Source of the DNA: a bacterium
GTDB lineage: Bacteria; BMS3Abin14
Length of the DNA: 64,000 bases
Direction: 5' to 3'
Assembly: GCA_029210965.1 (NCBI GenBank)
Contig: JARGFZ010000015.1
Location: 1 to 64,000, forward strand
Positions 3,180-42,925 of this stretch are shown in pieces. The notes beneath the pieces were generated by a model. That model saw nothing but the letters and a program-made list of their open reading frames with translations. It ran no database searches and had not been told where the DNA came from. The translations under genes were made by a program, and so were the position numbers. How positions within the stretch are numbered: the first letter of the stretch is position 1; the number at the start of each line of letters is the position of its first letter.

Positions 3180-3306
3180 ATTGTACCTGCCGTTAAATGT
3201 TGTCAGGTTTCCCAGGGAGTGGAATTATGACCACACCTGTGTTTAAATGGGCCTTTTTTTACCTTATAACATTTTTAGCTGTGTAACAGCAGGAAAGGAG
3301 AACCAG

Positions 3307-3789: not shown

Positions 3790-3869
3790 TGCAAGAATGC
3801 ATCCGCCGTCGCCAAGGCTATGGCGGACAGGGAATATGGAATGTAGAACGCAGAATAAAAACTAATCTA

Positions 3870-3899
3870 AAATAAAGCGGCCAATTGGCCGCCCTATTT
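3870..3899. terminator. Bidirectional terminator-like hairpin
   Basis: GCGGCCAATTGGCCGC is a perfect 16-base palindrome at 3877-3892. It is extended by AAATA on the left pairing with TATTT on the right. It sits between the convergent slyD (+) and sixA (-), with T-rich sequence on each exit side. Confidence 0.7.
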
Positions 3900-3925
3900 A
3901 TTCCTGGAACCTGGAACTCCGGACA

Positions 3926-4384
3926 CTATAGACTTTTCAATGTGTCCGGGGAGATCATCCATTTAACCCCCCATGTCCCGGCCTTTTCCAGACACACCAT
4001 TGTACCGGGAGTGAAGTCAATGATCTCCCTGCTGCTGTCGTGAAGGAGCAGCAGGGAAGCCAGGCGCGGCAGGTGGCCCACGAGCATGGCATCCTTGTCC
4101 ACGACCTCCAGATGTTGGGACCAGATAGCAGGATCATCTGATGGCCTGAGACCCTCCCTTTCCTCGGGGGCAGGAGCCCTGGGAAGAGCCTGGCTGATAA
4201 TGGAGGCTGTCTGGGCAGCCCTTACCTTGGGACTGTGGAAAATGTGCCCCGGCATCAATCTGAAACGATGGGCCAGAAGCCCGGCCAGATTACGCACATC
4301 GGTTTCGCCCTGCTTTGACAGAGGCCGTGCCCGGTCTTCTCCTTCGCTGACAGCCTCACCATGTCTCATGAGGTAAAGCAGCAT
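3926..4384 (-). CDS. sixA: Phosphohistidine phosphatase SixA-like
   Basis: A 152-residue histidine-phosphatase-superfamily protein. The catalytic RHG motif is at residues 7-9 (YLMRHGEA), followed by a second-site region PLSKQGETDVRNLAG, and the conserved C-terminal His in DAMLVGHLPRLASLL. Length and motif spacing fit SixA, which removes phosphate from histidines of phosphorelay or PTS proteins. It is divergent from the multi-PAS histidine kinase next door, which may or may not be a partner. No signal peptide, so cytoplasmic. Confidence 0.88.
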   Translation of the reverse strand: MLLYLMRHGEAVSEGEDRARPLSKQGETDVRNLAGLLAHRFRLMPGHIFHSPKVRAAQTASIISQALPRAPAPEEREGLRPSDDPAIWSQHLEVVDKDAMLVGHLPRLASLLLLHDSSREIIDFTPGTMVCLEKAGTWGVKWMISPDTLKSL

Positions 4385-4547
4385 CGCACTCTCCCTTCAC
4401 CCGTGTTTAATCTCTTTTTGATTGGAACGTCGAGCGCCCTGGGGGCCCTTCACCGATCTGATCCCATTATGCCAAAACCATAACATTTGTGCTGTGGGCA
4501 ATTCTAACTTACAATAATGTCTTTTATGGCTGTTTACAAAGGAGAGT

Positions 4548-7046: not shown

Positions 7047-7143
7047 TAGCGCTTCCGCTTGCAGGTAGATAAAAGGAAAAAAGTAAAATTGCCTGTCTAC
7101 TTTTCCGCTTTTGACAGTGAATGAAGCATTCAGGGGGGCGCTC

Positions 7144-7419
7144 ATGATCCAGCAGAGTGAACTGATCACATTTCTGATCGGGGCCGGAACCGCGACTTTT
7201 ATTTATCTCAACCGGCGCCGCATCGCTAATATTCCCGGATCCAACTGGATCCTCCTTGCCTACTCAGCACTTTTTGCGGGATGGACCATTACCATCGTAG
7301 AAGGTTTTGTTCTCCCTGATTTCATGAACGCTCTGGAACACGTGTGCTACATGGCAAGTTCCATGGCAGCTGCCGGCTGGTGCTGGATCGCCCTGATCAA
7401 GGAGAGGGGTATACAGTGA
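7144..7419 (+). CDS. Small three-helix membrane protein resembling the kinase sensor module
   Basis: A 91-residue protein with three predicted membrane helices (about 7-22, 35-58, 68-86). Helices 2-3 align by eye with the N-terminal membrane region of the kinase encoded just downstream: both have a Glu at the end of helix 2 (TIVEGFV here, NFLEWAG there) and an acidic pair entering helix 3 (ALEHV here, VEDFLEV there), with Trp near the same place. The stop codon overlaps the GTG start of the kinase (GTGA), indicating translational coupling. I infer it is a separate subunit of a membrane sensor; the family is unknown to me. The start at 7144 is the ATG best fitting membrane topology. Confidence 0.65.
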   Translation: MIQQSELITFLIGAGTATFIYLNRRRIANIPGSNWILLAYSALFAGWTITIVEGFVLPDFMNALEHVCYMASSMAAAGWCWIALIKERGIQ

Positions 7420-9479: not shown

Positions 9480-9489
9480 CTGCGGAATA

Positions 9490-9646
9490 TAGAATGTAGA
9501 ACGCAGAACGCAGAAGAAAGCGTTATCGGTTCCATTCAAAGATCATCCGCGTCTGAACCTTGAATACTGAAAGCAAGAACGTCATCCGAAGGCTGCCGTT
9601 TGGTTTTTAAATTCTACGTTCTACATTCTAGGTTCTACATTCTATT
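9490..9646. repeat. Heptamer-arm element (TAGAACG / TTCTACG arms)
   Basis: The left arm 9490-9517 consists of 7-mers such as TAGAATG and CAGAACG. The right arm 9612-9646 consists of TTCTACG and TTCTACA units, which are the complement of the left arm. The 94-base core is unique. Together they form a long imperfect hairpin filling the gap between the kinase and the ABC-F gene. Confidence 0.8.
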
Positions 9647-9684
9647 TCTAGACACCAGCCACCAGACACTGTAATTTCTCTACT

Positions 9685-11541
9685 ATGCTCAAAATACAGA
9701 ACCTGTCCAAATCATATGGCTCACAGGCCCTTTTTGACGAGGTCTCCGTAAATATCAATCGGGGGGAGCGGGTAGGTCTGGTTGGGCGCAACGGCCATGG
9801 AAAAACAACCCTCCTCAGGCTTCTGACAGGGGAGGAGTCTCCCGATTCAGGGGTCATCTCCGCTCCAAAAGGTTACCGGATAGGATATCTTCATCAGCAG
9901 CTGGAATTCACCCGCCCCTCCGTTCTGGAAGAGGCTGCTCTGGGGCTTGAAGAGGAAGAAAAGGACCAGACGTGGCGGGCCGAAAAAATTCTGGCCGGGT
10001 TGGGTTTTTCCGCGGAGGATATGATCAGCCCCCCGGAGATCTTCTCGGGTGGTTACCAGGTCCGGCTTAACCTCGCCCGGCTGCTCGTGTCGGAACCGGA
10101 TCTGCTTCTTCTGGATGAACCAACCAACTTCCTTGACGTCGTGGCGATACGCTGGCTGAAAAAGTTCCTTTTCTCATGGAAAGGGGAGCTTCTTGTAGTT
10201 ACCCATGACCGGAGTTTCATAGACGCGGTTACGACCCACATCATGGGGATCCACAGGCATAAGGTGCGGAAAATACCGGGTGATACGGGCAAGTATTACA
10301 GTCAGATAGCCATGGAAGAGGATGTTCACGAAAAGTCCCGCGTGAATATGGAGAAAAAACGCCGCCAGACGGAAGATTTTATTCGCAAATTCAGGGCCAA
10401 GGCCCGTCTCGTGGGCCTGGTCCAGTCCCGTATTCGCTCCCTTGAAAAGCAGAAGGTTCCGGAACGGCTCCAGGCTATAAGAACCCTGGATTTTTCTTTC
10501 AGGAAGGCTCCTTTCGAAGGAAAGGTGATGATGGAGGCCAGTGAACTTTCCTACCGCTGGCCTCAGGACTCCAAGGAGCTTTTCCGTAAAGTGCGCCTTG
10601 TCATTGGCAAGGGGGATCGCATAGCCGTTATCGGGCCCAACGGAAAAGGGAAATCGACTTTCCTGAGAGTGCTTGCAGGAGAGCTTACCCCCACGGGTGG
10701 TGAGGTCAGGACCCATAACCGTACGCGGGTGGGTTTCTTTGGGCAGACAAATGTTCAGCGGCTGGAGCCCAACCGCACCGTGGTTGAAGAGCTCCTGGCA
10801 GTGGAACCGGACCGTTCCCTGGCAAGAGCCAGAGCGGTGAGCGGGACAATGATGTTCGAGGGTGACTCGGCTCTGAAAAAGGTTTCTGTACTCTCAGGCG
10901 GGGAGAAGAGCAGGGTTCTTCTCGGCCGATTGCTTCTGGAACCACACAATCTCCTTCTTCTGGATGAGCCAACAAACCATCTGGATATGGATTCCTGTGA
11001 GGCGCTCCTCGACGCTATCGAAGATTTCGAAGGGGGCGTTGTTATCGTCACCCACAACGAAAACTTTCTGCACAGCCTGGCTGAGAAGCTCCTTGTTTTC
11101 GACAGAGGCGGAGCATCCCTGTTCGATGGCACATACCAGAACTTTCTGGATGAGGTGGGATGGGAATCGGAGGAGGAAACTGAGGGGAAAGGGGAAAGGG
11201 AAAAGGGAAAAGGGAAAAAGCCAGGCGTTAAAAGTGATGTCAGGGAGAATAAAAAAGAGTCTCGGAAAGAGAAGGTCCGTCTGCAGCAGGAACGGACCAG
11301 GATCATGGGGCCTCTCCAGCAGCGCGTAAAAGAGATGGAAAAAAAGATCACCGGATTGGAGTCAGAGGTCGAAAGGATAAACAGTGAGCTTATAGAGGCT
11401 TCCAATGCCGGAGAAGGGCAGCATATTTCTGAGCTTTCAAGAAAGCTGCACAGCCTTACCCGGGAGATAGAGAAGGGTTATGAAGTACTTGTGACCGCCT
11501 CGGAGGAGCTGGAAAAGGTGGAGAAGGAATTGGAACGGTAA
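9685..11541 (+). CDS. ABC-F family ATPase (Uup/YheS-like)
   Basis: A 618-residue soluble protein with two ABC ATPase domains and no membrane helices. Domain 1: Walker A GRNGHGKTT near residue 35, signature FSGGYQVRLNLARLL, Walker B LLLLDEPTNFLD. Domain 2: Walker A GPNGKGKST near 320, signature LSGGEKSRVLLGRLL, Walker B LLLLDEPTNHLD. The inter-domain linker has the charged helical look of the P-site tRNA interaction motif, and the last 100 residues form a charged coiled coil, as in Uup. ABC-F proteins act on the ribosome or, for Uup, in genome stability; which applies here is not decidable. A heptamer array (11184-11218) is embedded in the coding sequence just before the coiled coil. Confidence 0.92.
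   Translation: MLKIQNLSKSYGSQALFDEVSVNINRGERVGLVGRNGHGKTTLLRLLTGEESPDSGVISAPKGYRIGYLHQQLEFTRPSVLEEAALGLEEEEKDQTWRAEKILAGLGFSAEDMISPPEIFSGGYQVRLNLARLLVSEPDLLLLDEPTNFLDVVAIRWLKKFLFSWKGELLVVTHDRSFIDAVTTHIMGIHRHKVRKIPGDTGKYYSQIAMEEDVHEKSRVNMEKKRRQTEDFIRKFRAKARLVGLVQSRIRSLEKQKVPERLQAIRTLDFSFRKAPFEGKVMMEASELSYRWPQDSKELFRKVRLVIGKGDRIAVIGPNGKGKSTFLRVLAGELTPTGGEVRTHNRTRVGFFGQTNVQRLEPNRTVVEELLAVEPDRSLARARAVSGTMMFEGDSALKKVSVLSGGEKSRVLLGRLLLEPHNLLLLDEPTNHLDMDSCEALLDAIEDFEGGVVIVTHNENFLHSLAEKLLVFDRGGASLFDGTYQNFLDEVGWESEEETEGKGEREKGKGKKPGVKSDVRENKKESRKEKVRLQQERTRIMGPLQQRVKEMEKKITGLESEVERINSELIEASNAGEGQHISELSRKLHSLTREIEKGYEVLVTASEELEKVEKELER
11184..11218. repeat. In-frame heptamer array inside the ABC-F gene
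   Basis: Five 7-bp units, two GGGGAAA and three GGGAAAA, lie in the linker between ATPase domain 2 and the C-terminal coiled coil (about residues 500-511, GKGEREKGKGKK). Because 7 is not a multiple of 3, gain or loss of a single unit would shift the frame and remove the coiled coil. Confidence 0.85.
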
Positions 11542-11544
11542 GCT

Positions 11545-11645
11545 GTGAACACGTACATGCGTAGGTGCGTGCGTGAGTGTGCGCGGAAATAATCCCGGGA
11601 AAATGCTTTTCGCACGTACGCACGAACGCATTTACCCACGAACGA
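11545..11645. repeat. Inverted GTGCGTGCG / CGCACGTACG repeat element
   Basis: The left arm (11545-11585) is rich in GCGTGCGTG-type units. The right arm (11611-11645) is rich in CGCACGTACG and CACGAACG, the complement. They flank a short core with AATCCCGGG. It starts four bases after the ABC-F stop codon and ends shortly before the ribosome site of the next gene. Confidence 0.65.
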
Positions 11646-11662
11646 CAGCACCGGAGGTGCCG

Positions 11663-12610
11663 ATGAAGATCGTTGTCCTGGACGGCTACACCTTGAATCC
11701 AGGCGATCTTTCCTGGGATGATCTGAAGGCGTTGGGTGATTGTATCGTCCACGACAGGACCGCTCCCGATGAGTTAGTGGAAAGAGGGAAGGGAGCCCAG
11801 GTCCTTCTGACCAACAAGGTGGTCCTGGACCGGGAGGCCATCGGGCAGCTGCCTGAGCTGGCTTATATTGGCGTTCAGGCCACCGGTGTTAACGTTGTTG
11901 ACCTGGAGGCTGCCCGGGACCGGGGGATCGTTATCACCAACGTGCCGGCCTACGGCACCGATTCTGTGGCCCAGTTTGTTTTCGCGCTCCTTTTAGAACA
12001 TGTTAACTCTGTCGGGCACCACACCGAAGCGGTCCATGCAGGGAAATGGTCAGCCTGTGCGGATTTCAGCTTTCATGAAAGACCCCTCGTAGAACTTGCA
12101 GGTATGACCCTGGGTATCGTCGGTTACGGGGCCATCGGAAGGGCTGTGGCAAGGATCGCCGAGGCCTTCGGGATGGTGGTCATTGTGCATACGCGAACAC
12201 CATGTAAAAGCAGCGAGACCCGATTTGTTGATCTGGAAACGGTATTTGCCGAAGGTGATGTGGTGAGTCTCCACTGTCCCCTTACACCTGAAACAAAGAG
12301 GCTGGTAAACAGCAGACGTCTTAAGCTGATGAAGAATTCAGCAATACTCATCAACACATCACGGGGCCCTCTTGTGGATGAAGCGGCCCTCGCAGATGCC
12401 CTCAATGGCGGACAGATAGCGGGAGCCGCCCTGGACGTTCTTTCGGTGGAGCCTCCACCCGAGAACAACCCTCTGTTAGCGGCCCGGAACTGCACCATAA
12501 CTCCTCACATCGCCTGGGCCACACTGGCGGCCAGAAAAAGGCTCATGGACACTGTGGTGGGGAACGTAAAGGCGTGGATGGAAGGGAGACCGAGGAACGT
12601 GGTCAGCTAG
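11663..12610 (+). CDS. D-isomer-specific 2-hydroxyacid dehydrogenase (glycerate dehydrogenase-like)
   Basis: A 315-residue NAD(H)-dependent oxidoreductase. Residues 1-95 and the C-terminal end form the substrate domain; the central Rossmann domain carries GYGAIGRAVARIAEAFG (about 152-168). The catalytic residues are visible: Arg in NTSRGPLVDE, Glu in the VEPPPENN region, and His in TPHIAWAT. It closely resembles HprA-type glycerate/hydroxypyruvate reductases, so serine or glyoxylate metabolism is likely, though the substrate is not proven. The start at 11663 follows CCGGAGG; the longer in-frame start would translate the upstream repeat. A threonine aldolase follows after repeats and could feed the same glycine/serine pool. 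Confidence 0.9.
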   Translation: MKIVVLDGYTLNPGDLSWDDLKALGDCIVHDRTAPDELVERGKGAQVLLTNKVVLDREAIGQLPELAYIGVQATGVNVVDLEAARDRGIVITNVPAYGTDSVAQFVFALLLEHVNSVGHHTEAVHAGKWSACADFSFHERPLVELAGMTLGIVGYGAIGRAVARIAEAFGMVVIVHTRTPCKSSETRFVDLETVFAEGDVVSLHCPLTPETKRLVNSRRLKLMKNSAILINTSRGPLVDEAALADALNGGQIAGAALDVLSVEPPPENNPLLAARNCTITPHIAWATLAARKRLMDTVVGNVKAWMEGRPRNVVS

Positions 12611-12632
12611 GAGCTGACCTGGAATCGTCTGA

Positions 12633-12729
12633 CACGGAGACCCGCCTTCGCTGAAGCTACGGCGTGGCAAGCACGGGGACCCGCCTTCGCTGAAGCTACG
12701 GCGTGGCAAGCACGGAGACACGGGGAAAA
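12633..12729. repeat. Tandem 39-bp repeat (family E)
   Basis: Two nearly identical 39-base copies (12633-12671, 12672-12710) and the start of a third. Each contains CGCCTTCGCTGAAGCTACGG followed by CGTGGCAAG. The inner CTTC/GAAG pair forms a small hairpin. Related single copies are scattered through the window, for example near 17707, 43305, 48821 and 49696. Confidence 0.85.
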
Positions 12730-12822
12730 GGCTCTGTGTCGGAGTGTCGGGGTATCGGTGTGCCGGCGAAATGCTATATAATCCTTTATGCTGTTGACAC
12801 TGCGGGCTCTTTAGATAAGCTG

Positions 12823-12885
12823 CCCATAGCCCATAGCCCATAGCCCATAGCCCATAGCCCATAGCCCATAGCCCATAGCCCATAG
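12823..12885. repeat. Nine tandem CCCATAG heptamers
   Basis: Nine perfect copies end 12 bases before the ATG of the threonine aldolase gene, so they lie in its leader. A TTGACA occurs at 12794-12799. Upstream, at 12735-12766, is a degenerate GTGTCGG-type array with a 7-8-bp period. Confidence 0.95.
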
Positions 12886-12897
12886 CCCCTTTGAGAT

Positions 12898-14001
12898 ATG
12901 AGATCTGAAATTAGCCTTATTGATCTTCGTTCCGACACGGTAACGAAACCCACCCCCGAGATGCGAAAGGCCATGGCCGAAGCCGAGGTGGGGGACGATG
13001 TTTACAGCGAGGACCCCACGGTCAACCGTCTCGAGGAGACGGCTGCCGGCATGCTGGGTTTCGAGTCCGCCCTATATGTGCCCACCGGAAGCATGGGAAA
13101 CCAGGTGGCCCTGGCGGTCCACACCCGTCCCGGGGAAGAGGTTGTGTGCGACGCCGATAGCCATATCCTGCACTATGAGATGGCGGCCATGGCAGCGCTT
13201 TCCGGTCTGCTGCCACGGGTCCTGAACACGGTGGGAGGGTTTCCCAGCGCCAGCCAGGTTTCGGAGGCCATTCAGCCTGACATCGGATACCTGTCGCGGA
13301 CCGGGCTTATTAGTCTGGAAAACAGCCATAACAGGGGCGGCGGTGCGGTCATGGAGATAGAAAGGCAGCGGGAGATCCAGGAGGCTGCCCATCAAAAAGG
13401 AGTGCCTGTCCATCTTGACGGGGCGAGGATCTTTAACGCTGCTATCGCCCTTGGTGTGGATGTCCATGAGGTGGCAGCCGGGTTCGATTCGGTCATGTTC
13501 TGCCTTTCCAAGGGGTTGGGGGTTCCAATCGGATCTCTTCTGTGCGGGTCTTCGGATTTCATCAGGGAGGCCCGAAGGGTCCGCAAGAGGTTCGGCGGGG
13601 GTATGCGGCAGGTGGGGGTGCTGGCCGCTCCCGGCCTGGTGGCCCTGGAAAAAATGACAGGGAGGCTTGCCGAGGACCACCTTACGGTGAGGCTCCTGGC
13701 TGAAGGGTTGGCACAGAAGTCAGGTATCGAGATCCCCGTCGATCCTCAAACCAACATCCTCATCTTCACCGTGGGGCCGGAGTGGTTCGGCGAAAAAATC
13801 CCGGAGGACGAAAACTACGCTGGAGGGTTCGTCCGACACCTGAAAGAACACGGGATCCTGGCTCTGGCATTGGATAAAAACAAGGTCCGAATGGTAACGC
13901 ACTATGATTTACCTGAAGACGCAGTTGTGAGAACAATGAGAGCAGTAGAAAGTAGAAACCCTTCGACAAGCTCAGGGTCCCGAGCCCGGTCGAGGGAGTA
14001 G
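12898..14001 (+). CDS. ltaE: Low-specificity L-threonine aldolase
   Basis: A 367-residue PLP-dependent fold-type I enzyme cleaving L-threonine or allo-threonine to glycine and acetaldehyde. The N-terminus IDLRSDTVTKPTPEMRKAM is the family hallmark; PTGSMGNQVAL and ENSHNRGGG bind PLP and substrate, and the Schiff-base lysine is in FCLSKGLGVPIGS near residue 205. The family usually ends around residue 345; here the last 20 residues (RNPSTSSGSRARSRE) and the stop come from a dispersed repeat containing CCTTCGACAAGCTCAGG, so the tail is an add-on. There is no strong ribosome site before the ATG, only the CCCATAG array and a weak TTTGAG. Confidence 0.92.
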   Translation: MRSEISLIDLRSDTVTKPTPEMRKAMAEAEVGDDVYSEDPTVNRLEETAAGMLGFESALYVPTGSMGNQVALAVHTRPGEEVVCDADSHILHYEMAAMAALSGLLPRVLNTVGGFPSASQVSEAIQPDIGYLSRTGLISLENSHNRGGGAVMEIERQREIQEAAHQKGVPVHLDGARIFNAAIALGVDVHEVAAGFDSVMFCLSKGLGVPIGSLLCGSSDFIREARRVRKRFGGGMRQVGVLAAPGLVALEKMTGRLAEDHLTVRLLAEGLAQKSGIEIPVDPQTNILIFTVGPEWFGEKIPEDENYAGGFVRHLKEHGILALALDKNKVRMVTHYDLPEDAVVRTMRAVESRNPSTSSGSRARSRE

Positions 14002-14690
14002 AAAGGGGAAAGAGAGAACGCAGCACGCAGAAGGCGTGATGAGCCGGAATCCAGCCCAAACAATGGTTCCTGTAAAAGCGGCGGATTTAACCACGGAGAA
14101 AATCGGAGAAAGGCGGAGGAAACCTGGAATCAGGGGGGAGCGCATGCGTATGCCGCAAACGCTCTGAAGTCCATTCACCACGGAGGTCACAGAGGACACG
14201 GAGAAAAGTCAGGAACTGGGGTAATGCTTGTCATCGCGAGCCGTCAACCAGGCGACTCGCCACGGCGGAAGCGCAGACCTGGAATCCAGCCTGGCGTGCC
14301 TGCCGCGTCGAAGTCCGGAGGACGAAGATGGGCCTGCCACGGTGAAGCCGAAGGCGAAGACGGAAGCGATCCCGGTTGTTATGACTGCGATGTTTTTACC
14401 ACAGGGTTCACAGGGTAACACAGGGTTAAACCTGGAGTCTTAGGAAAGCGCGGTTACCATAATTGCGATGTTTTTTCACCACTGAGCTCACTGAGAACAC
14501 TGAGGAAACCTTAAGTCTCGGTTGTGGGACGGTTACTATAAAGGCGATCTTTTTCACACAGAGCGAAGACGGGTCATTGCGAACCCTGAAATAGTCCAGT
14601 TCCTTAATCTTCCTCCCCCTTGAGCCCCTCGACTTTGCTCGGGGTCCTGAGCCTGTCGAAGGAGGGGGAGGACCGAGGTGGGGGTGAAAA
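14002..14690. repeat. Gene-less repeat island
   Basis: No credible gene. It is a mosaic of small dispersed repeats. Family C (ACCACGGAG or ACCACTGAG motifs with about 9-bp internal period, often preceded by ACTATAAAGGCGATGTTTTT) occurs near 14084, 14175, 14378, 14453 and 14530. Family E (complement strand) occurs near 14294 and 14334. Family D (CCTTCGACAGGCTCAGG, complement strand) occurs near 14620-14665. The last copy ends at the ribosome site of hsdS. Confidence 0.85.
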
Positions 14691-14693
14691 AGT

Positions 14694-15515
14694 ATGACCT
14701 CTGAAAACTTCCTTGAAAACTTTGAGCATCTTGCTGGTGCACCTAATGGGGTCCCAAAATTAAGAGAATTAGTACTCCAACTAGCTGTACGGGGGAGGCT
14801 TGTTCCACAGGATTCTAATGCTGAGCCTGCATCGAATTTGTTGAAAAAGATTGAGGCCGAGAAAAGAAAGCTGGTAGTTGCGAAGGCGATAAGAAACAAG
14901 AAGCTGAGCGCTTTGGGAGATGCTCCTTATGAACTCCCAGATAGCTGGTCTTGGGTACTCATCGGGAATATTTGTAGAGATTGGGGTCAAAGAGTACCCG
15001 ATAAGCTTTTCAGTTATATTGATGTGTCGGCTATCGACAATGAAAAAGGTGCCATTAATGAGCCCACCGTTATTGAAGCAGCTGACGCACCATCTCGGGC
15101 AAGAAAATTAGTACGACTGGGGACGGTTATTTATTCGACAGTACGTCCGTACTTGTTGAATGTTGCAGTGATCAACAAGGAGTTGGAACCTGACCCGATT
15201 GCTAGTACTGCTTTTGCTATCGTGCATCCCTTAGGGGGGATATCGAGTCGATATGTTTTCTGGTATCTACGCAGCCCCGTATTTATCTCATATGTAGAAT
15301 CCAAAATGCTTGGTGTTGCTTATCCAGCCATTAATGACAGCCAGTTTTTTTCGGGACTGTTTCCTCTCCCCCCCCTCGAAGAACAAAAACGCATCGTTGC
15401 CAAGGTCGATCAACTCATGGCCCTTTGCGATACACTGGAACAGCAGCTAAACTTGGCACAGTCCAAGGCCTCCAAGTATGCAGAAGCTATTGTCGCAGCG
15501 ATGACGGCTGCCTGA
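14694..15515 (+). CDS. hsdS: Half-size type I restriction specificity subunit (HsdS)
   Basis: A 273-residue protein with the conserved HsdS entry (PKLRELVLQLAVRGRLVPQD, residues about 21-40), one target-recognition domain (about 75-215, starting at YELPDSWSWVLIGNI) and one closing coiled coil (LEEQKRIVAKVDQLMALCDT). Normal HsdS has two target domains and 400-600 residues; this has one, so it is a half subunit that might dimerise or an internal-deletion product. No hsdM or hsdR is present on either side, so it cannot restrict alone. Codon use and A+T content differ from its neighbours, pointing to transfer. A hairpin terminator follows directly. Confidence 0.85.
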   Translation: MTSENFLENFEHLAGAPNGVPKLRELVLQLAVRGRLVPQDSNAEPASNLLKKIEAEKRKLVVAKAIRNKKLSALGDAPYELPDSWSWVLIGNICRDWGQRVPDKLFSYIDVSAIDNEKGAINEPTVIEAADAPSRARKLVRLGTVIYSTVRPYLLNVAVINKELEPDPIASTAFAIVHPLGGISSRYVFWYLRSPVFISYVESKMLGVAYPAINDSQFFSGLFPLPPLEEQKRIVAKVDQLMALCDTLEQQLNLAQSKASKYAEAIVAAMTAA

Positions 15516-15539
15516 TAGTTGCCATATGAGTTGACTTTG

Positions 15540-15563
15540 CCTGATGCAGCCGCATCAGGTTTT
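15540..15563 (+). terminator. Rho-independent terminator after hsdS
   Basis: CCTGATGC pairs with GCATCAGG across a four-base loop and is followed by TTTT. It separates hsdS from the toxin-antitoxin operon. Confidence 0.75.
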
Positions 15564-15635
15564 CAGCGACATTCCTACTAAAGAGAGAACCAAACAACTC
15601 CCTGTTGGTAGCTAACACTATGAGCACATTCTCTG

Positions 15636-15665
15636 TTGACTTTTTATAAAGTATCATTATGATAC
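15636..15665 (+). promoter_or_regulatory. Promoter and operator of the mqsR-mqsA-secB operon
   Basis: A -35-like TTGACT (15636-15641) is followed by a perfect inverted repeat GTATCAT-T-ATGATAC (15651-15665) that covers the -10 position (TATCAT or ATGATA). This is where an autoregulating antitoxin would bind; the known MqsA operator is also a short palindrome, though of different sequence. The assignment is inference from position and symmetry. Confidence 0.6.
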
Positions 15666-15698
15666 CTTTATGTTGATCGCTAGCAAGGAGGTGCAGAT

Positions 15699-15737
15699 AT
15701 GCTTGATCCAGGGGAAGCGATTTGGGACGCAAACTGA
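15699..15737 (+). CDS. Possible 12-residue leader peptide overlapping the toxin start
   Basis: ATG at 15699 with a strong AAGGAGG seven bases upstream opens a 12-codon reading frame (MLDPGEAIWDAN) that stops at 15737, inside the first codons of mqsR in another frame. The toxin itself has only a TTG start (15722). The best ribosome site of the operon therefore drives this short frame, which could limit or couple toxin translation. Sequence alone cannot show it is translated. Confidence 0.4.
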   Translation: MLDPGEAIWDAN

Positions 15738-16057
15738 AACCCCATTATGACCTCAATGAGCTTAAGGAACTGCTTCAGGAAGATGACACTGGTGACATTG
15801 TCGGGAAGGCCAGGAAGACAGCTGTCGCGCTTGGTTATAGCGAGGACGATGTGATCAGGAAGGTTCTGGAACTACAGCCAAAACACTTTTTCCTGAGCAA
15901 GACAGCGTTTCACGATCCAAAGCTTTGGCATGACTATTACAGACTTCCAGACGATGATAAAGATATCGACCTATTTATCAAACTGCAAAAGGGCCATGAC
16001 GGAGTGGCCCGGGTGACATCCTTCACGGGATACGATGAGGAGTACGAGAATGTATAA
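15722..16057 (+). CDS. mqsR: MqsR-family toxin (mRNA interferase)
   Basis: A 111-residue RelE/YoeB-fold endoribonuclease of the MqsR family, which cleaves mRNA (E. coli MqsR at GCU) and stops translation. The family pattern is visible in the second half: VIRKVLELQPKHFFLSKT, then HDPKLWHDYYRLP and the closing strands IDLFIKLQ and VARVTSF. It is somewhat longer than E. coli MqsR (98 residues). TTG at 15722 is the only possible start, since an in-frame stop lies 18 bases upstream. The 3' end overlaps the antitoxin ATG by eight bases. Toxin-first order is typical of mqsRA. Confidence 0.85.
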   Translation: MGRKLKPHYDLNELKELLQEDDTGDIVGKARKTAVALGYSEDDVIRKVLELQPKHFFLSKTAFHDPKLWHDYYRLPDDDKDIDLFIKLQKGHDGVARVTSFTGYDEEYENV

Positions 16058-34344: not shown

Positions 34345-35346
34345 ATGCCGCGGTTGACGCTGAAGATCCTGGGTAAGGCTACCGTTTTCGGGCTCGTTCT
34401 GGCGGCGCTCGGATTTGTCGTTTCCTGCGCTTCCATGAAAACCAGTCGTCCCGTGGTTCCCATGAGGGAGTATGAAAGGGTGCTGGTGGGCTCCATGGCG
34501 GCCGAGTATGTGGGAAACGAGGATTGTCTCAAGGCGTGCCATGACCACGATCAGACCGCTGCGTTTCTTGCCGAAAGTGTCCACGGCCACCAGAAGGTCG
34601 AGGGCACGGACAGGCTTCTCGTCAACTGTGAAACCTGCCACGGTCCCGGCAGCGAGGCGATAGCGCCGGACTTTATCAGCAAGCACAACCGGTGCGATAC
34701 CACCCAGTTCGTCCCCCTTCAGGCGTTGCCGGCAGCGGCCCTTTCCATGCTCTGTCTCAAGTGCCACAGCTCCTACTCCATGGCCAACATACAGTACTGG
34801 CCCTTCAGTGATCATGCTCTGGGTGAGATCAGCTGCTCTGACTGCCACAAGCTGCACCGGAGTTCTCAGCAGAAAATCAAGGGCGCTCAGATCAACCAGC
34901 AATGTATGGGCTGCCACGACAGCGTCAGGGCGGAGTTTTCCTTCACCGCAAGACACCCAGTTCCGGAGGGCAAAATGCTCTGCACCGACTGTCACGAACC
35001 CCATGGCAGCCAGGCTCCCCGCGGCCTCGTGGCGCTGGACCAGAAAGGCCTGTGCCTCAACTGCCACGGACAGCTCGTCGGCCCCTTCACCTGGGAGCAT
35101 GCCGACGTCACCGATGAGTGCACGGCATGCCATTCGCCCCACGGGTCCGTATTCGCTGATATGCTCAAGGTCCAGGAACCGTTCCTGTGTCTTCAGTGCC
35201 ATGCAGGACATACCGATTTCAGCACACCGGCGTCTCCCTCGGCGAGCATAAAGGGAGCTTTCTACACCCGCTGCACCAACTGTCACTCCCAGATACACGG
35301 TTCCGATACAAGGGGACCGCATCCGGGCAGTGGCCTGATCCAGTAG
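34345..35346 (+). CDS. Decaheme c-type cytochrome, MtrA/DmsE family
   Basis: A 333-residue periplasmic cytochrome, the same length as Shewanella MtrA. It has a hydrophobic leader ending in VVSC, a likely lipobox, so it may be lipid-anchored. Nine CxxCH heme sites are visible (CETCH, CLKCH, CSDCH, CMGCH, CTDCH, CLNCH, CTACH, CLQCH, CTNCH). An N-terminal CLKACH, with three residues between the Cys, probably binds the tenth. MtrA-type proteins sit in an outer-membrane barrel and carry electrons across it; a barrel gene follows 31 bases downstream. The ribosome site is AAAGGGG. Confidence 0.9.
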   Translation: MPRLTLKILGKATVFGLVLAALGFVVSCASMKTSRPVVPMREYERVLVGSMAAEYVGNEDCLKACHDHDQTAAFLAESVHGHQKVEGTDRLLVNCETCHGPGSEAIAPDFISKHNRCDTTQFVPLQALPAAALSMLCLKCHSSYSMANIQYWPFSDHALGEISCSDCHKLHRSSQQKIKGAQINQQCMGCHDSVRAEFSFTARHPVPEGKMLCTDCHEPHGSQAPRGLVALDQKGLCLNCHGQLVGPFTWEHADVTDECTACHSPHGSVFADMLKVQEPFLCLQCHAGHTDFSTPASPSASIKGAFYTRCTNCHSQIHGSDTRGPHPGSGLIQ

Positions 35347-35377
35347 GGGACCGGATTATAAAGGCTGGAGGGTTCGA

Positions 35378-37261
35378 ATGAGGGGAAAGCGTTATAAAGT
35401 ACTGACGATCATTTCCATCGCCCTGTGGGTTTTCCTGGGGGGGGCGGCCCTGGCTGCTGAGGTTGATGAGCAGCTGGAGGGGTGCGGTGAAGAGGCCAGA
35501 AGAGGTTATGGGCTCTGTGTAGGTTACGAGGAACTGTCCATCGACGGTGGCGGCGAAACCCTCTTTCCCTACAGGCTCCTGGACTCGCATCCCGTGGCAA
35601 GGGGCCACTACCAGGAGCTCCTCAAAGACGGCCTGCTCAGCCTTTCCTTCTCCTATGAAGGAGAGGACTACTATAATTTTAACGGTGATTACTACGGGCT
35701 TACCGATACCGTGGTGGTCTGGTCCCAGAAGTTCGTGAAGAACCTCGAGCACCAGAACCTGCCCGGGCCATTCAATACTTCAGGTGCACCCCTTTACTGG
35801 TCCGAGGATATGGACCCCGGGGACGCATATCACCTGGACCAGCAGGAGAGCTACGCCAGTTTCAAGTACAAGTGGCACAGTTACCCGGCCAACGTGTCGG
35901 TGGCCATCCGCCAGTATACCACTGAGGGTGAAAAACAGCAGTTCTTTCTCAATGAGAACTGTGCCACCAACTGTCACGCCGTGTCACAGACCAGGAGTGT
36001 CAAAACTTCCACCGACCAGGTCTTTTTAAACGGTTCAACCCATCTGGGACTGGTGGATGTTTCCTACAATTACAGAGGTGCACAGTTCACTGACGACATG
36101 CCTGATCCGGTCTATGCTTTCGGTTCCATCCCCAGCTATTCGGGAACCCGGGATGTTCACAACACCTACCCGGATCTGGATTCATCAGAACACCTTCTCA
36201 GCGTCAGCACCAACCACACAGGACGTTTTTCCGGTCTCCTGGGTCTGGGTATGGGAGACAGGGAGAACCTGGATTCAGGAGCATCCGAGAAATACCAGCA
36301 ACTGCAGGGACGCTTTCTGTGGCGGCCCAGCAAAACGGTGGCGATGTTCCTGGACTCCAAACAGCTTTATCAGCAGGACGACAAACCGTCCGCTGCTCTG
36401 GAAGCTGTGAAGACCGCTGACGGGGCTCCCCTGCGCTACGGGTCGGTTCAAAATCGGCACAAGCTGACAGTCATTTACTATCCCATGGACATCCTGGACC
36501 TCAAAGGGGAGCTGACCTATTCGGATACAGAAAGGGAAGACAACGAACTGTGGGGTCTTCCCGATGACACCTCCTCCAGCGAATGGAGTCTTGCAGCACG
36601 AATAAAGCCTGCTTCAAAGGTAAAGATCAAAGCAACCTATGCCGACAGGATCACCGATAACCCGGCTTACCCGTCTTCAGCCACCGACAGCCGTAAAATG
36701 CTGCTCTCCGGTCAATGGGTCCCCCTGAACGGTTTGTGCTTTGAAGCCGATCTCAAGGATTTTTCCGATGAGAACACCGACAGCGGCCAGACCAATAACC
36801 GTCAGATCCTGGGCGCCGCGATCACATACACCCCCCCAAAGCCTTTCTCCCTCGCCTTCAGGGTGTACCAGTTCACCAACGATATATCAGCCGATCTTAC
36901 CTTCGCTGATACTTCTCCCTCGCCCATTATCGATGAGGGTGTTCCCTACGCCGCGGACGGGACACAATATATGCTGCAGGGTGTCTGGAGCGCGAGCAAG
37001 AAGCTTCAGGTAACCGGTCAATACAGCTACCTCATGGCGGAGGGGTCTTACGATGCTGGCATAACCGGCTTTGCTGATGTGGGAGGTTACTCGGGACTCG
37101 ATGCCGTCCAGCAGGAGTCGTCCCTGGATCTCAATTACACCATGAACGATGGCTGGGGAGTGTCAGCCCGGCTTGCCCAACTGTCCTACGAAGACAAACA
37201 AAGTGATCTGGCGGATGAGGATATAAGCCAGGTTTCGGCTTCCGTGACGAGGAAATGGTGA
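35378..37261 (+). CDS. Outer-membrane beta-barrel porin of a porin-cytochrome conduit
   Basis: A 627-residue protein with a signal peptide (cleavage after GGAALA) and many alternating amphipathic strands rich in Tyr and Ser with short Asp/Gly turns, ending in Trp (SASVTRKW), as outer-membrane barrels do. It plays the MtrB/PioB-like role by context: it follows the decaheme cytochrome and belongs to the same operon. Unusually, it contains CATNCH near residue 198, a CxxxCH site that could bind a heme, and a second Cys pair near the N-terminus (CGEEARRGYGLC). Sequence similarity to MtrB itself is not obvious, so the family is a probable distinct conduit porin. Confidence 0.8.
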   Translation: MRGKRYKVLTIISIALWVFLGGAALAAEVDEQLEGCGEEARRGYGLCVGYEELSIDGGGETLFPYRLLDSHPVARGHYQELLKDGLLSLSFSYEGEDYYNFNGDYYGLTDTVVVWSQKFVKNLEHQNLPGPFNTSGAPLYWSEDMDPGDAYHLDQQESYASFKYKWHSYPANVSVAIRQYTTEGEKQQFFLNENCATNCHAVSQTRSVKTSTDQVFLNGSTHLGLVDVSYNYRGAQFTDDMPDPVYAFGSIPSYSGTRDVHNTYPDLDSSEHLLSVSTNHTGRFSGLLGLGMGDRENLDSGASEKYQQLQGRFLWRPSKTVAMFLDSKQLYQQDDKPSAALEAVKTADGAPLRYGSVQNRHKLTVIYYPMDILDLKGELTYSDTEREDNELWGLPDDTSSSEWSLAARIKPASKVKIKATYADRITDNPAYPSSATDSRKMLLSGQWVPLNGLCFEADLKDFSDENTDSGQTNNRQILGAAITYTPPKPFSLAFRVYQFTNDISADLTFADTSPSPIIDEGVPYAADGTQYMLQGVWSASKKLQVTGQYSYLMAEGSYDAGITGFADVGGYSGLDAVQQESSLDLNYTMNDGWGVSARLAQLSYEDKQSDLADEDISQVSASVTRKW

Positions 37262-37262
37262 G

Positions 37263-38219
37263 ATGATCTCAGTGCCGATAAAGTTCATGCGGACAGAGTT
37301 AATAGTGGGCATTTTATGCATGCTGCTGATGACCTGTGTGCCGGTGGCTGCCCGGGCGGCCACCGTAGGGCTTATCCTTCCCAAAGACTGCGCTTTTTCC
37401 TCCGACGTCAAGGACAAGTTTTCCGTTCATTTAAAAGAGGCAGGGATCAAGGATAGCGAGATCCTGATGCAGCGGCCAGGTTCGGACAAGGTGTCGCGCC
37501 TTAACAGTATGAGGAAGTTCCTGGCTTTCGGGGTGGATGTCATTGTGGTATGGGGCAGTACTTCCATTAAGGAGATCGCAGGTGAGGCGGGCAAAACACC
37601 CATTGTGTTTGTTGGTGTGTGGGATCCTGTTGAGAGCGGCATCGTTAATGGCCTTAAACAGCCGGGTAAAAACATCACAGGCGTTGTGGGGAAAACCGCT
37701 ACAGCCTTCCTGCTGGATAATATCATCGAAGCCACCGGTACCAAGGTTCTCGGAGTCATTTACCATTCAGGTCTTGTTGACAGCATGGGACAGTACGGTG
37801 ACGTCAAGAGGATGGCACCCGGTAAGGGCCTGGAACTTGTGGAGGCTGACCTTCAGACAAGCTCCGAGGAGGAGACCTCCGCAGCCCTGGAACCGGCCCC
37901 GTTCCTGTACCTGGCCCAGGGGTGTGACGTGGAAGGCGGCGTTTATGAGGCTCTGGCGAAGCTCAACAAGCCGGCCGCCACCCAGAACCCGGGTATCACA
38001 GGGGGTGGCGTTATCTTTACTCTCGCTCCGGACATGGATGAGACCATCAAGGTCGCCTCCGACATCACGGGGCGTATTCTGCAAGGAGAAAAACCTGGGG
38101 ATATTCCGGTAGCCAGGATCAAGAAGGTCAACTTTAAAATAAACGTGGGTGAGGCACGCAGGTTGGGCGTAAAGATCCCCTTCGGAGTGCTTAATCGTGG
38201 GACCGAGGTAATCAGATAG
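37263..38219 (+). CDS. ABC-type substrate-binding protein (ABC_sub_bind family)
   Basis: A 318-residue exported protein. The signal peptide (to VAARAA, residue about 33) starts one base after the barrel stop codon. The body has the two-lobe periplasmic-binding fold of the ABC_sub_bind (PF04392) group: VDVIVVWGSTSIKEIAG, PIVFVGVWDPVESGIV, then ITGVVGK and the closing INVGEARRLGVKIP typical of the family. No permease or ATPase is nearby, so transport is unlikely; it may instead feed the chemoreceptor encoded next. The ligand is unknown. Confidence 0.85.
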   Translation: MISVPIKFMRTELIVGILCMLLMTCVPVAARAATVGLILPKDCAFSSDVKDKFSVHLKEAGIKDSEILMQRPGSDKVSRLNSMRKFLAFGVDVIVVWGSTSIKEIAGEAGKTPIVFVGVWDPVESGIVNGLKQPGKNITGVVGKTATAFLLDNIIEATGTKVLGVIYHSGLVDSMGQYGDVKRMAPGKGLELVEADLQTSSEEETSAALEPAPFLYLAQGCDVEGGVYEALAKLNKPAATQNPGITGGGVIFTLAPDMDETIKVASDITGRILQGEKPGDIPVARIKKVNFKINVGEARRLGVKIPFGVLNRGTEVIR

Positions 38220-38227
38220 GTGCAGAC

Positions 38228-40360
38228 ATGATCAATTTCACAAAGCTCTCAATAAAGATCAAGGTCTCGATCTTCGTCGCCGTCATTCTTGTCGTTGTTA
38301 TTGGTTTAACGACGATGATATTCTCTTCGGAGGTCAACCAGCGGCTTGAGAAGGCCCTGCTGGCCGCTACCACCCTTGTGGGAGAGAACCTGGTCAGTGA
38401 GATCAAGAAGACGGTAGACATGGGCATCTACCTTTCCGAACTGGACGGTCTTTCCGATCAGCTCACCCAGGTTGTGGAGCAGGATGCCACTCTCGGTTAT
38501 ATCTATGTCGCTGACAACAAGGCCGCGGTGCTCTACTTCAGCGACGGGATGGCGGAGTGGGTGGGGGAACTGGCCAAGGTTTCGGATTCTCTCCTCGAGG
38601 ATACCGCGACCCCGGTAACGGCACTGATCCAATCCGGGGGTGAGGGGTACTACCAGCTTTCCATTGCCATTGATTCCATGGGAGATTTTCAGGGATACCT
38701 CGCCATCGGTCTCAAGGAAAAGGTCATAGGCGAGCAATTAAAACAGATCAACAGGCGCATGATCCTCATCGGGCTGTTCAGCTTTCTCATTGCCACCCTT
38801 ATCATCGTTGTATTTTTGAACAGGCTCATAAGCGTGCCTCTCGCGAGTCTGGCGGTAACCGCAAGACAGATCTCCGACGGGAATATCATGGAGCCTGACA
38901 TCGCTGTGCGGCACGATGAGATCGGGGAGCTTTCAGGAGCCTTCGGGGTGATGGCTCGGGAGCTTACCGGCATGATTTGCAGGTTCTCCGATACATCGTC
39001 CAGCCTCCAGAGTTCTTCGGTGGACCTGTCCTCCGTAGCCGGGAACCTTACGACCTCCTTCGGGAAACAGATGGAGACCCTCGACGGGGTGGTAACCGCT
39101 ATCCAGGAGATCGATGAGCTGGCCAAGGACCTTTCCAAGCAGGCAATTAACCTGAGTGATACGGCCAACGAATCCTCCGCATCCATTACAGAGTCCACAT
39201 CTGCCATCGGGGAGATCAACCTGAATATGGCTGAGATCAACGAGGCTATAGAAAACATAACCTCCTCCATACTCCAGATGTCCGCTACCTTTGGAGAGTT
39301 GGCGGAGGGGGCTGATGAGACGGCCAAGCTGGGAGAGGACGCCATGGACGCTGTGTCCAGGATCAGCGAGGGCGTCAAGAACATGGAGATGATGGTGGAC
39401 CAGTCAAAGACCCTGTCTGAGGATATGAAGCTCAACGCTCAGGACATCGGGTCCAAAGCTGTCAGGGAGACCCTCCAGGGCATTCTTTCCATAAAGGAGG
39501 ATGTCCAGAATTCTGAACAGGCCATGAAACTGCTTAACGAAAAGGTGGACAGCATAGGGGATATCGTCACTGTGATCGAGGGTATTGCCGACCAGACCAA
39601 CCTCCTTGCGCTCAACGCAGCCATCATCTCGGCCCAGGCCGGAGACGAAGGCAAGAGCTTTGCCGTGATCGCCTCCGAGATCAGGGAACTTTCCGCAAGC
39701 ACAACCGAGTCCACAAAGAAAATATCCTCGGTCATCCAGTCGGTCCAGCAGGAGGCCAAAAGCTATACCAACTATGTAAAGAGGGTCAGCCATAGCGTGG
39801 AAGAGGGTCATAACCGCGGTCTGCAGGCAACAGAAGCGCTGGACAAGCTCGTGGAGTATGCTAACGACTCTGCTAGAATGTCTGGAGAGATCTCCCAGGT
39901 GACGCGAGAACAGGCATCGGCCAGTGAAATGGTGGCCAGCAGCATCGAGCATTTCACCAAGCGGGCTGACGTGATCAGACGCGCCACCTCCGAAGAGGCG
40001 CAAACGGCAAAGTTCATCAGGGATTCAATCGAGAAGGCAAAGGGGATGGTGGAAAAGGTCTATCGGTCCACAGAAGAGCAGAACAAGACCAGCCAGATGA
40101 TCAACGACATGGTCATCAAGGCTGAGGAGATAGCCAGCAGACTGCAGCAGGCTACCGAGAGAGAAAAAGACCTCATCACTTCCATTTCCGGTTCCGTGGA
40201 GTCCCTGAGGGATATGAGCCAGGAGAACTTCGGAATGGTGAAGAGTGTCGATTCCTCGTCAGAAATGCTTACCGATCTGTCCTCCTCCCTGGGCAAGGAA
40301 CTCGACAGGTTCAGGATGGAAAATGGCGCGGAAAAGGGACCTTCCATCGAGGAAGGGTAG
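38228..40360 (+). CDS. Methyl-accepting chemotaxis protein
   Basis: A 710-residue transmembrane receptor: TM1 at about 12-33, a periplasmic sensor of about 150 residues, TM2 at 180-200, HAMP at about 200-255, and a long signalling coiled coil. The tip that contacts CheW/CheA reads DQTNLLALNAAIISAQAGDE where most receptors have [11 protein letters not shown], so two conserved acidic/basic positions are changed. This suggests a receptor class serving a non-flagellar Che-like pathway, or an altered partner. It starts eight bases after the binding-protein gene and sits within the cytochrome operon, so it may sense electron-acceptor status. Confidence 0.88.
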   Translation: MINFTKLSIKIKVSIFVAVILVVVIGLTTMIFSSEVNQRLEKALLAATTLVGENLVSEIKKTVDMGIYLSELDGLSDQLTQVVEQDATLGYIYVADNKAAVLYFSDGMAEWVGELAKVSDSLLEDTATPVTALIQSGGEGYYQLSIAIDSMGDFQGYLAIGLKEKVIGEQLKQINRRMILIGLFSFLIATLIIVVFLNRLISVPLASLAVTARQISDGNIMEPDIAVRHDEIGELSGAFGVMARELTGMICRFSDTSSSLQSSSVDLSSVAGNLTTSFGKQMETLDGVVTAIQEIDELAKDLSKQAINLSDTANESSASITESTSAIGEINLNMAEINEAIENITSSILQMSATFGELAEGADETAKLGEDAMDAVSRISEGVKNMEMMVDQSKTLSEDMKLNAQDIGSKAVRETLQGILSIKEDVQNSEQAMKLLNEKVDSIGDIVTVIEGIADQTNLLALNAAIISAQAGDEGKSFAVIASEIRELSASTTESTKKISSVIQSVQQEAKSYTNYVKRVSHSVEEGHNRGLQATEALDKLVEYANDSARMSGEISQVTREQASASEMVASSIEHFTKRADVIRRATSEEAQTAKFIRDSIEKAKGMVEKVYRSTEEQNKTSQMINDMVIKAEEIASRLQQATEREKDLITSISGSVESLRDMSQENFGMVKSVDSSSEMLTDLSSSLGKELDRFRMENGAEKGPSIEEG

Positions 40361-40412
40361 CGCAACTTTTCGGGCCCGCTAGAAGCAGGGCCCCACAAGG
40401 GAGCGGTGGTTC

Positions 40413-42488
40413 ATGAAAGGTTTCGAAAGAGCATTTTTGGTCCTGTTATTGGTTCCTGTCCTTATGGTGTCGGCGTGCAGCAACCCGCTGGACAGCAGCA
40501 GTACGGACGGTGTTCAGTTCACTCCCCAGCCCCTGGGTATGGATTACTGCTACGATTGCCACAATGTCCCAGGTTCCAGTCAGGCGTTCGAACAGGTATT
40601 TGAGGGATGGGTGATCAGCCGGCACTCCAACTTCGACTACTACGATAGTGTTTCTCATTCCGGAACCCCTGTGGACCCCTTCAATTTGGGAGTGTACAAC
40701 TACAGCGACATCGAAGGCTATCCCAGCTACTATTCCAATACTTTGGTTTACCCGACAAGCTGCAGCCCGTGCCACATGGGTCCTGACGACGGAGGTCAGT
40801 TCCTCGATGCCAATGCAGGTGGGGTGATATTCAATGACCCGAACCTGGGGGAGCAATACCGTTTTATAGTCGACTGCGAGGCGTGCCACGTAAGTGGAAC
40901 AGGACATTTTGGCGGAGCTTCCCCTCCTGAGGTGGCCATCCCGGCCTTTCACCAGTGCACAGAGTGTCATCCGCCCACTGACCCCATGCTCATTTCCCCG
41001 GCCTTTGCGGATGCCGAGCACACCGACCACCACGGTCCCGATTCGACCCGCATGTGGTCCTATGGGGATACGGTTATTTACGATATCGTGGGAAGAACAG
41101 GAGCTTCCCCTATAGACACAGCGACCCTGGTCCTGGCTTCCAATTCCTTTGATGCCTATATCATCAGTGCGGCTTGGCTTGCTGCCAACGGCGGTTCCTG
41201 GACCTTCGATTCCCACGAGACCATTAACGATACTCACTACCAGGGGATCTGGATGATCGACGAACCTAACGAGCTGGTGATCTACGAGGTCCCCACCTCC
41301 AGGTTCGGTTACGTGGACCTGACCAACACCTCTCCCAATTCGGGCATGGCCAGAGCCGACGCTGTTGACTCTTGCACAGCAAGTTGCCACGGGGCCCACG
41401 AGTTCGATCTCACCATCAACGAGCAGTGGTTCCACGGCGCGCATCATCCCAACATTGAGGGTCCCCTGGGAACAACCACAAGCAGGGGGAATGTGGTACT
41501 GGACATTCCCGGGCCAGCCAACTGGGGGGCGGTGGACCATGGGTTTAACGCCTCGTGCTATCGCTGCCACAATGCCATGGGGTTCGCAGAGGTGGCCCCG
41601 GGTTACGGCAACGCCATTCTCACACCTGCCAATTCGGACGGTTTTATAACCTGCAACGCTTGCCACGATGGGGTGAATTACCCGACTGCTAATGACAAGA
41701 GTCTCCGCTTCAGCGGAGCGGTGCCTCTGTACGATTACCAGGGTGTTCCTTTGGCAAATGTTCAAGCGGGAAGGAACGCTGTTTGTGTTTACTGCCATCA
41801 AGGCCGTGAGGATGGCAGTCACGTTGATGCAGATATCGCCTCAGGCTCGCCGGGATTCAGGAACATGCACTACCTGGCTGCCGGCGCCACCCTCTACGGA
41901 ATGAAGGGGTATGAATATTCCGGAAAGACCTATGCGGGAGAGCATACCTTCCACGTAGTGGCTGGTTGCGCCGGCTGCCACATGGCGGATGATCCCCCGG
42001 TAGACGATGTGGGTGGTCACACTTTCCACATGGCCTATGGGTCTACTGAAAATACCGCCTTCTGCGCAGCGTCCTGCCACACGTTCATGGTAGCTCTGGA
42101 CGATCCCGGGGCACCCCATGCTCATGGTGTGGACTGGGATGGAAATGGCGCCACCGTATCGGCCAAGGATGAAGTGGCATATCTCCTGACAGTACTCCTC
42201 CATGACGCCATCGAGGCCTACGACAGCCCCGACGATGCTGATACGATAGCAAATATAGACTATTCGAGCAGTTATCCCTATTTTGGAACTTCCGACCCCA
42301 CCCAGCAGTGGGACGGCACCGTTGCCAAAGCAGCTTTTAACTGGCAGTTCATATATAAAGACCCCGGAGCTTATGCCCATAACCCGAAATACGCAGTTCA
42401 GCTATTAAGGGATTCGTACAATGACATGGTCGATGCCCAACCGGCAGGTGCTCCGAGCATACCATCGCTGGGCGGTACAAGACCTTGA
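40413..42488 (+). CDS. Outer-surface multiheme c-type cytochrome lipoprotein
   Basis: A 691-residue lipoprotein (signal peptide with lipobox VSAC, Cys at about residue 22). Eight CxxCH sites (CYDCH, CSPCH, CEACH, CTECH, CYRCH, CNACH, CVYCH, CAGCH) plus CTASCH and CAASCH, each with three intervening residues, give up to ten hemes. By position and type it should be the exterior partner of the barrel and decaheme cytochrome, handing electrons to minerals, partners or soluble acceptors. The protein is rich in Asp, Gly and aromatic residues between hemes, as in surface cytochromes. The exact acceptor is unknown. Confidence 0.9.
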   Translation: MKGFERAFLVLLLVPVLMVSACSNPLDSSSTDGVQFTPQPLGMDYCYDCHNVPGSSQAFEQVFEGWVISRHSNFDYYDSVSHSGTPVDPFNLGVYNYSDIEGYPSYYSNTLVYPTSCSPCHMGPDDGGQFLDANAGGVIFNDPNLGEQYRFIVDCEACHVSGTGHFGGASPPEVAIPAFHQCTECHPPTDPMLISPAFADAEHTDHHGPDSTRMWSYGDTVIYDIVGRTGASPIDTATLVLASNSFDAYIISAAWLAANGGSWTFDSHETINDTHYQGIWMIDEPNELVIYEVPTSRFGYVDLTNTSPNSGMARADAVDSCTASCHGAHEFDLTINEQWFHGAHHPNIEGPLGTTTSRGNVVLDIPGPANWGAVDHGFNASCYRCHNAMGFAEVAPGYGNAILTPANSDGFITCNACHDGVNYPTANDKSLRFSGAVPLYDYQGVPLANVQAGRNAVCVYCHQGREDGSHVDADIASGSPGFRNMHYLAAGATLYGMKGYEYSGKTYAGEHTFHVVAGCAGCHMADDPPVDDVGGHTFHMAYGSTENTAFCAASCHTFMVALDDPGAPHAHGVDWDGNGATVSAKDEVAYLLTVLLHDAIEAYDSPDDADTIANIDYSSSYPYFGTSDPTQQWDGTVAKAAFNWQFIYKDPGAYAHNPKYAVQLLRDSYNDMVDAQPAGAPSIPSLGGTRP

Positions 42489-42569
42489 CAGCAGCGATGA
42501 ATGGCGTAGGCTAAACGTAGCAAACCGAGTCATCAAAACTGTTAACTGTGTTCGCAAAGGAGGGGGAAA

Positions 42570-42803
42570 ATGCTACTTTGGCTAATGGTTGGTATTGCCT
42601 TGGCTGTTTTTGGGGTCCTTGAGATCATGCTCAACTTTACTATGCCCTTTGTGGAGCTCAGGACTATCCTCCTTTTTCTCCTGGTCATGGGGATGTCCTA
42701 CCGCATCTATCTCATGGAGCGGGGAGGGGAAAAGGAAAAACTTAAAAACAAAGTCCGTGAACTGGAGGACAAACTGCGCCAATTGGAGATGGGCTTGGAG
42801 TAG
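42570..42803 (+). CDS. Small membrane protein with coiled-coil tail
   Basis: A 77-residue protein with two membrane helices (about 2-24 and 28-47) and a charged cytoplasmic coiled coil (EKEKLKNKVRELEDKLRQLE). AAAGGAGGGGG precedes the ATG. It lies 81 bases after the surface cytochrome and before a strong terminator, so it is probably the last gene of that operon. The function is unknown. Confidence 0.75.
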   Translation: MLLWLMVGIALAVFGVLEIMLNFTMPFVELRTILLFLLVMGMSYRIYLMERGGEKEKLKNKVRELEDKLRQLEMGLE

Positions 42804-42899: not shown

Positions 42900-42925
42900 G
42901 CTGAAGGGCCGAAAGGCCCTTCAGC
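42900..42925 (+). terminator. Strong hairpin terminator ending the cytochrome operon
   Basis: GCTGAAGGGCC and GGCCCTTCAGC form an 11-bp stem with a GAAA loop. The following T-content is modest. Confidence 0.7.

Follow-up and report, generated by a model that had tools for sequence, protein, structure and literature searches.

Six genes follow one another on the forward strand of the window, as we call the whole 64,000-nucleotide stretch of DNA that was analysed (Table 1). The original prediction had described them as a series on one strand with short gaps, running from a decahaem MtrA-like cytochrome through an outer-membrane barrel, a periplasmic binding protein and a methyl-accepting receptor to a surface multihaem lipoprotein and a small membrane protein, and all of these open reading frames were found in place, with gaps of 31, 1, 8, 52 and 81 bases. 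That the unit is more than a chance arrangement is borne out by the repetition of the same order across the family and of its core across 11 family groups. A promoter scan of the window detected no site on the forward strand and nothing above chance, and an Rfam search of the window and seven other loci rendered only tRNAs, so that control by a riboswitch is not supported. The cupin and thioesterase genes located upstream were considered as further members of the unit and ruled out, since they are missing from G003, one of the related genomes.

Table 1. Genes and features of the six-gene unit in the window, with the evidence for each assignment.
Feature	Position	Strand	Evidence
MtrA/DmsE-type decahaem cytochrome of the binding-protein-linked clade	34345..35346	+	TIGR03508 2e-70, above the curated cut-off; 6r2q_A 1.7e-61; haem motifs; clade support 100/100; lipobox
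MtrB-like outer-membrane barrel, relative of the GSU2204 family	35378..37261	+	NF041027 1.7e-17, below the curated cut-off; one CX3CH
Periplasmic binding protein, PF04392 (TrpX fold), not of transporter type	37263..38219	+	PF04392 1.1e-25; fold matches; separate clade, support 100/99
Methyl-accepting receptor	38228..40360	+	PF00015 1.1e-38, PF00672; model and fold matches (WalK sensor domain, tip of the E. coli core signalling unit)
Surface multihaem lipoprotein	40413..42488	+	PF14522 1.1e-7; motif count; conserved Cys22
Membrane protein of 77 residues with charged coiled tail	42570..42803	+	kept across the phylum, 55-86% identity (alignment)
Terminator-like hairpin 3' of the last gene	42900..42925	+	T tail weak; sites of this kind not enriched over shuffled sequence

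The first two genes encode a decahaem periplasmic cytochrome and a probable outer-membrane barrel, a pair of the kind found in the MtrCAB and porin-cytochrome conduits, such as those of Shewanella (MtrA in 6r2q), DmsEF, and Geobacter GSU2203-2204. The MtrA of the window belongs to the DmsE family and shows a match to MtrA in the solved structure of the MtrCAB complex. It contains nine CX2CH haem motifs and one CX3CH, which is the first site (residue 61), and judging from its sequence it is likely a lipoprotein (lipobox C28). The putative barrel, of 627 amino acids, resembles the GSU2204 family by a sequence match that stays under the curated cut-off, and it carries one CX3CH motif at residues 195-200 (window positions 35960-35977) that is conserved within the phylum. 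Haem-type CXnCH motifs are present in the barrels of the window's phylum, G296, G627, G764 and G585 and absent from those of G319, G370 and G286; such a motif inside a porin is puzzling. The surface cytochrome has eight CX2CH and two CX3CH motifs and a conserved lipobox cysteine. Some of the haem motifs of the unit thus depart from the canonical form. A surface multihaem lipoprotein is a feature that the window's phylum has in common with the MtrCAB and porin-cytochrome conduits, and its gene is missing from most of the module loci outside this phylum. In contrast to those conduits, the MtrA of the window belongs to a distinct clade with a CX3CH first site, whose loci have a binding protein as an obligate member as well as signalling genes, both of which are lacking in sister conduits.

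The phylum of the window was sampled by 12 genomes, all of one family. The six-gene order was indeed found again, six of the 12 genomes carrying the unit: it is ordered in G000 (the host of the window), G002, G003 and G006, fragmentary in G001 and split in G004. The surface cytochrome of G002 runs into an assembly gap, and in G003 the order is intact even though every flanking gene is different. In G004 the unit is severed inside mtrB, with MtrA and most of the barrel on one piece and the end of the barrel, followed by the binding protein, the receptor, the surface cytochrome and the small protein, on the other, and this split is a rearrangement or misassembly of the six-gene unit. Some 690 kb separate the two halves (L050 and L051), which lie on the one contig of this genome. 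No strong MtrA match and no close binding protein were found in the remaining six genomes of the phylum. Since the unit is intact, fragmentary or split in its carriers, and the other six genomes have neither element, the family's genomes offer no example of the arrangement that would speak against the unit, namely a conduit alone with the binding protein and receptor encoded elsewhere.

A profile of the phylum's MtrA was run on 386 genomes, nearly all from different families, and an enlarged MtrA profile on 395 genomes of the phylum of G319 and eight genomes of the phylum of G370; most of the genomes compared are metagenome-assembled. The scores fell into two groups separated by a wide gap (<=1e-124 versus >=1e-79 in the phylum of G319). 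All 21 proteins of the strong-scoring group have the CX3CH first haem site together with nine CX2CH motifs, and such a first site was present in none of the 31 weaker, sister proteins. In a maximum-likelihood tree the strong group forms a single clade (support 100/100), the members of which, collected by MtrA similarity alone, belong to 11 family groups from at least three phyla. A truncated MtrA of the clade type directly adjoins tilS in G158 (L140 4817-6918), with no barrel or binding protein seen, and a TilS-like gene is located after the module of G296 as well.

Because the clade was gathered by MtrA alone, the neighbouring genes provide an independent test. A binding protein gene, detected with a profile of PF04392 proteins, is located directly after mtrB on the same strand in all 20 readable loci (the 21st locus of the clade being that of the split G004), and among 27 sister conduits whose downstream sequence extended for 3.9 kb or more none was followed by a binding protein and none had an MCP nearby. 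These counts (20/20 and 0/27) do not represent independent events, as a single origin accounts for them; the independent point is co-inheritance, which follows from a separate clade of binding proteins and from congruent trees. The conduit binding proteins do form one clade apart from the transporter-type proteins (support 100/99), and the MtrA and binding-protein trees have 13 of 17 splits in common, with a Mantel r of 0.937 that none of 2000 permutations reached. Moreover, the spacing between mtrB and the binding protein gene is -7 to +21 bases in most loci, so that the two genes abut or overlap. Genomics shows in this way that MtrA, barrel and binding protein are a single inherited unit, spread over the 11 family groups. 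The binding protein, rather than the receptor, is the closest partner of the conduit; in some lineages the receptor is absent or has another gene in its place.

The model of the binding protein (mean pLDDT 79) rendered 3lkv (1.7e-18), 6hnj, 3lft and 6hni as best fold matches, with LuxP and the ribose-binding protein lower. Proteins of the 3lkv, 6hnj and 3lft kinds have phenylalanine, tyrosine or tryptophan as ligands (PMC6816091). The conduit binding protein has its fold and the PF04392 family in common with the TrpX-type binding proteins for aromatic amino acids (3lft, 3lkv and CD0873, 6hni), but it differs from them in belonging to a separate clade, in the loss of motifs of its transporter relatives and in the lack of a permease. 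The EHPALD and TDN motifs, common to the permease-linked relatives, are absent from all 20 conduit binding proteins, and, in agreement with what had been read from the window, none of the module loci contains a match to the permease of the host genome's own transporter. That transporter includes the other PF04392 protein of the host (L053; G000:C3:29000-48900, 7230-12480), which is encoded with a BPD_transp_2 permease, an ATPase and a molybdopterin oxidoreductase; it serves uptake, a role that proteins of the PF04392 family also have, and this weighs against the sensory reading. The conduit binding protein lacks a haem motif. A redox switch involving its two invariant cysteines was considered and rejected as a mechanism of general scope, since these are conserved only in the phylum and, roughly, in G296, and are absent from most other members.

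A signalling gene lies downstream of the binding protein gene in 17 of 19 testable loci, from which G149 and G778 were left out as their contigs end too early, and three kinds are found. The gene that follows the binding protein codes for a methyl-accepting receptor in the window's phylum, in G296, G286, G764 and G585, and in both module copies of G779. In the second G779 copy (L211 1957-4568) a surface cytochrome gene stands between the two, and the receptor gene is broken over two reading frames. The sensor domains are homologous among the receptors of the window's phylum, G296, G286 and G779, and also in an unlinked receptor of G319. In G319 itself, as in G509, G726, G409 and G650, the next gene encodes a CheY-like receiver in which the acidic, phosphorylation, serine and lysine positions are intact. 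In G684 (L191 3942-6346) the next genes encode another binding protein (PF12974) and a HAMP histidine kinase, so that two binding proteins of different kinds stand beside one sensor. No signalling gene was found directly after the binding protein in G370 and G627, so signalling may not be the sole role of this protein.

The receptor of the window is composed of a transmembrane helix, a single-Cache-like periplasmic domain (approximately residues 35-175), a second transmembrane helix, a HAMP domain and a signalling hairpin. In its model, of which the sensor domain and the tip alone were used given a full-length pLDDT of 60, a helix and five strands lie between the two membrane helices. The fold matches of the sensor domain include the single-Cache domain of WalK, and a search by sequence matched it to no solved structure. 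The tip is 36% identical over 99 residues to that of the E. coli core signalling unit (6s1k), and the hairpin arms, of about 225 residues on either side of the tip, suggest a signalling hairpin of about 64 heptads. The 40+24H receptor class is that of pilus systems. As the host has only four MCPs, one quarter of them is encoded in the conduit operon. A che cluster of the host (L084; G000:C1:28000-47900, 3111-15783) encodes CheY, CheA, an ATPase, CheW, a receiver, HEAT repeats, CheR and CheB; it includes no MCP of its own and is a probable partner of the scattered receptors.

The CheW-ATPase-CheA run of this cluster has the content of GSU2220-2222 of Geobacter sulfurreducens, which are part of the Esn network, required on electrodes and not on Fe(III) oxide (PMC5585712). 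Esn is likewise a chemotaxis-like complex tied to the use of extracellular acceptors, but EsnA, which lacks both a periplasmic domain and a binding protein, is encoded apart from any conduit (PMC5585712). No flagellin was found in the 12 genomes of the phylum, and matches to PilT-family ATPases were present in all 12; with the Esn-like che cluster, this makes pilus motility or gene control likelier as output than flagellar taxis. The original prediction, that taxis or gene control is tied to extracellular acceptors or shuttles at this operon, is supported as regards sensing tied to the conduit, for which co-inheritance at every readable locus, the lack of a nearby permease, the lost motifs and the three kinds of signalling gene speak; flagellar taxis is unlikely.

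We consider it reasonably probable (about 0.6) that the operon encodes a trans-outer-membrane electron conduit with a sensory arm of its own, the sensory part being suggested by signalling genes that can be exchanged, by the lack of a permease and by the loss of the transporter motifs. MtrA and the barrel would carry electrons between the periplasm and the cell surface, and in the window's phylum the decahaem lipoprotein would extend the path outward. The binding protein would reside in the periplasm, be produced in step with the barrel and not act in transport; it may recognise a small redox-active molecule (an acceptor, a shuttle or a product) or the state of the conduit, and would dock on the single-Cache domain of the adjoining receptor. 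The receptor would then pass its signal to CheA/CheW, with type IV pili or gene expression as the probable target. In other lineages conduit and binding protein would work with either a CheY-like receiver or a histidine kinase joined by a second binding protein. A permease-free binding protein encoded beside a sensor is likewise found in TorT-TorS, which has a part in respiration with an external acceptor too, and in LuxP-LuxQ, of which LuxP was one of the fold matches of the conduit binding protein. The present module differs from both in its PF04392 family, in an output that is usually a methyl-accepting receptor and in the fixed linkage to an electron conduit. On the other hand, the single-Cache domain could bind its own ligand unaided, which counts against a sensory arm of this kind.

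The main rival reading is that the binding protein directly serves the conduit, as a structural or catalytic part that acts as a periplasmic adaptor on MtrA or presents a soluble acceptor or donor, the signalling genes being secondary. It would account for a binding protein that accompanies MtrA and the barrel in all lineages, even where the signalling gene differs or is lacking, whose gene abuts mtrB and whose tree follows that of MtrA, and it fits the absence of the surface multihaem gene from most loci outside the phylum. The three kinds of signalling gene in nearly all testable loci, set against the lack of MCPs near sister conduits, and a binding protein devoid of haem motifs argue against it, and we regard it as unlikely on balance. 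Somewhat more doubtful still is the possibility that the MtrA-barrel pair of this clade is a redox antenna rather than mainly a respiratory wire, so that the binding protein would sense how far the conduit is filled with electrons, or detect a shuttle that the conduit has reduced, and would relay this to interchangeable outputs. If true, such a sensory system would use a dedicated trans-membrane haem wire to gauge the redox state outside the cell.

Two further explanations appear very improbable to us. Many PF04392 proteins are transporter components, and the host itself has one with its permease and ATPase, so the binding protein might be an uptake component served by a permease and an ATPase encoded elsewhere, in an accidental neighbourhood; but its clade is separate from the transporter proteins and has lost their shared motifs, no permease of the host's transporter type is found in any module locus, and the protein has been co-inherited with MtrA across at least three phyla. 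It would be equally hard to reconcile with the data that the locus is a plain respiratory conduit, beside which receptor and binding protein hitch-hike and do something unrelated: sister-type conduits do without both, but the order is kept in G003 amid entirely different flanks and across the 11 family groups, and the MtrA and binding-protein trees are congruent.

The component parts of the module are of known kinds, and their combination was not found in the openly licensed literature that was searched, in which we met with no description of a conduit together with a binding protein and a receptor. The CX3CH first haem site is a simple sequence mark by which further members of the clade can be found. 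To our knowledge, it is still an open question how bacteria sense electron acceptors that are solid or lie outside the cell, and Esn, the best candidate for such a sensor in Geobacter, is encoded apart from any conduit. In the present case a single cytochrome clade is accompanied across at least three phyla by a binding protein of its own and, for the most part, by a signalling output, so that the sensing of acceptors becomes testable.
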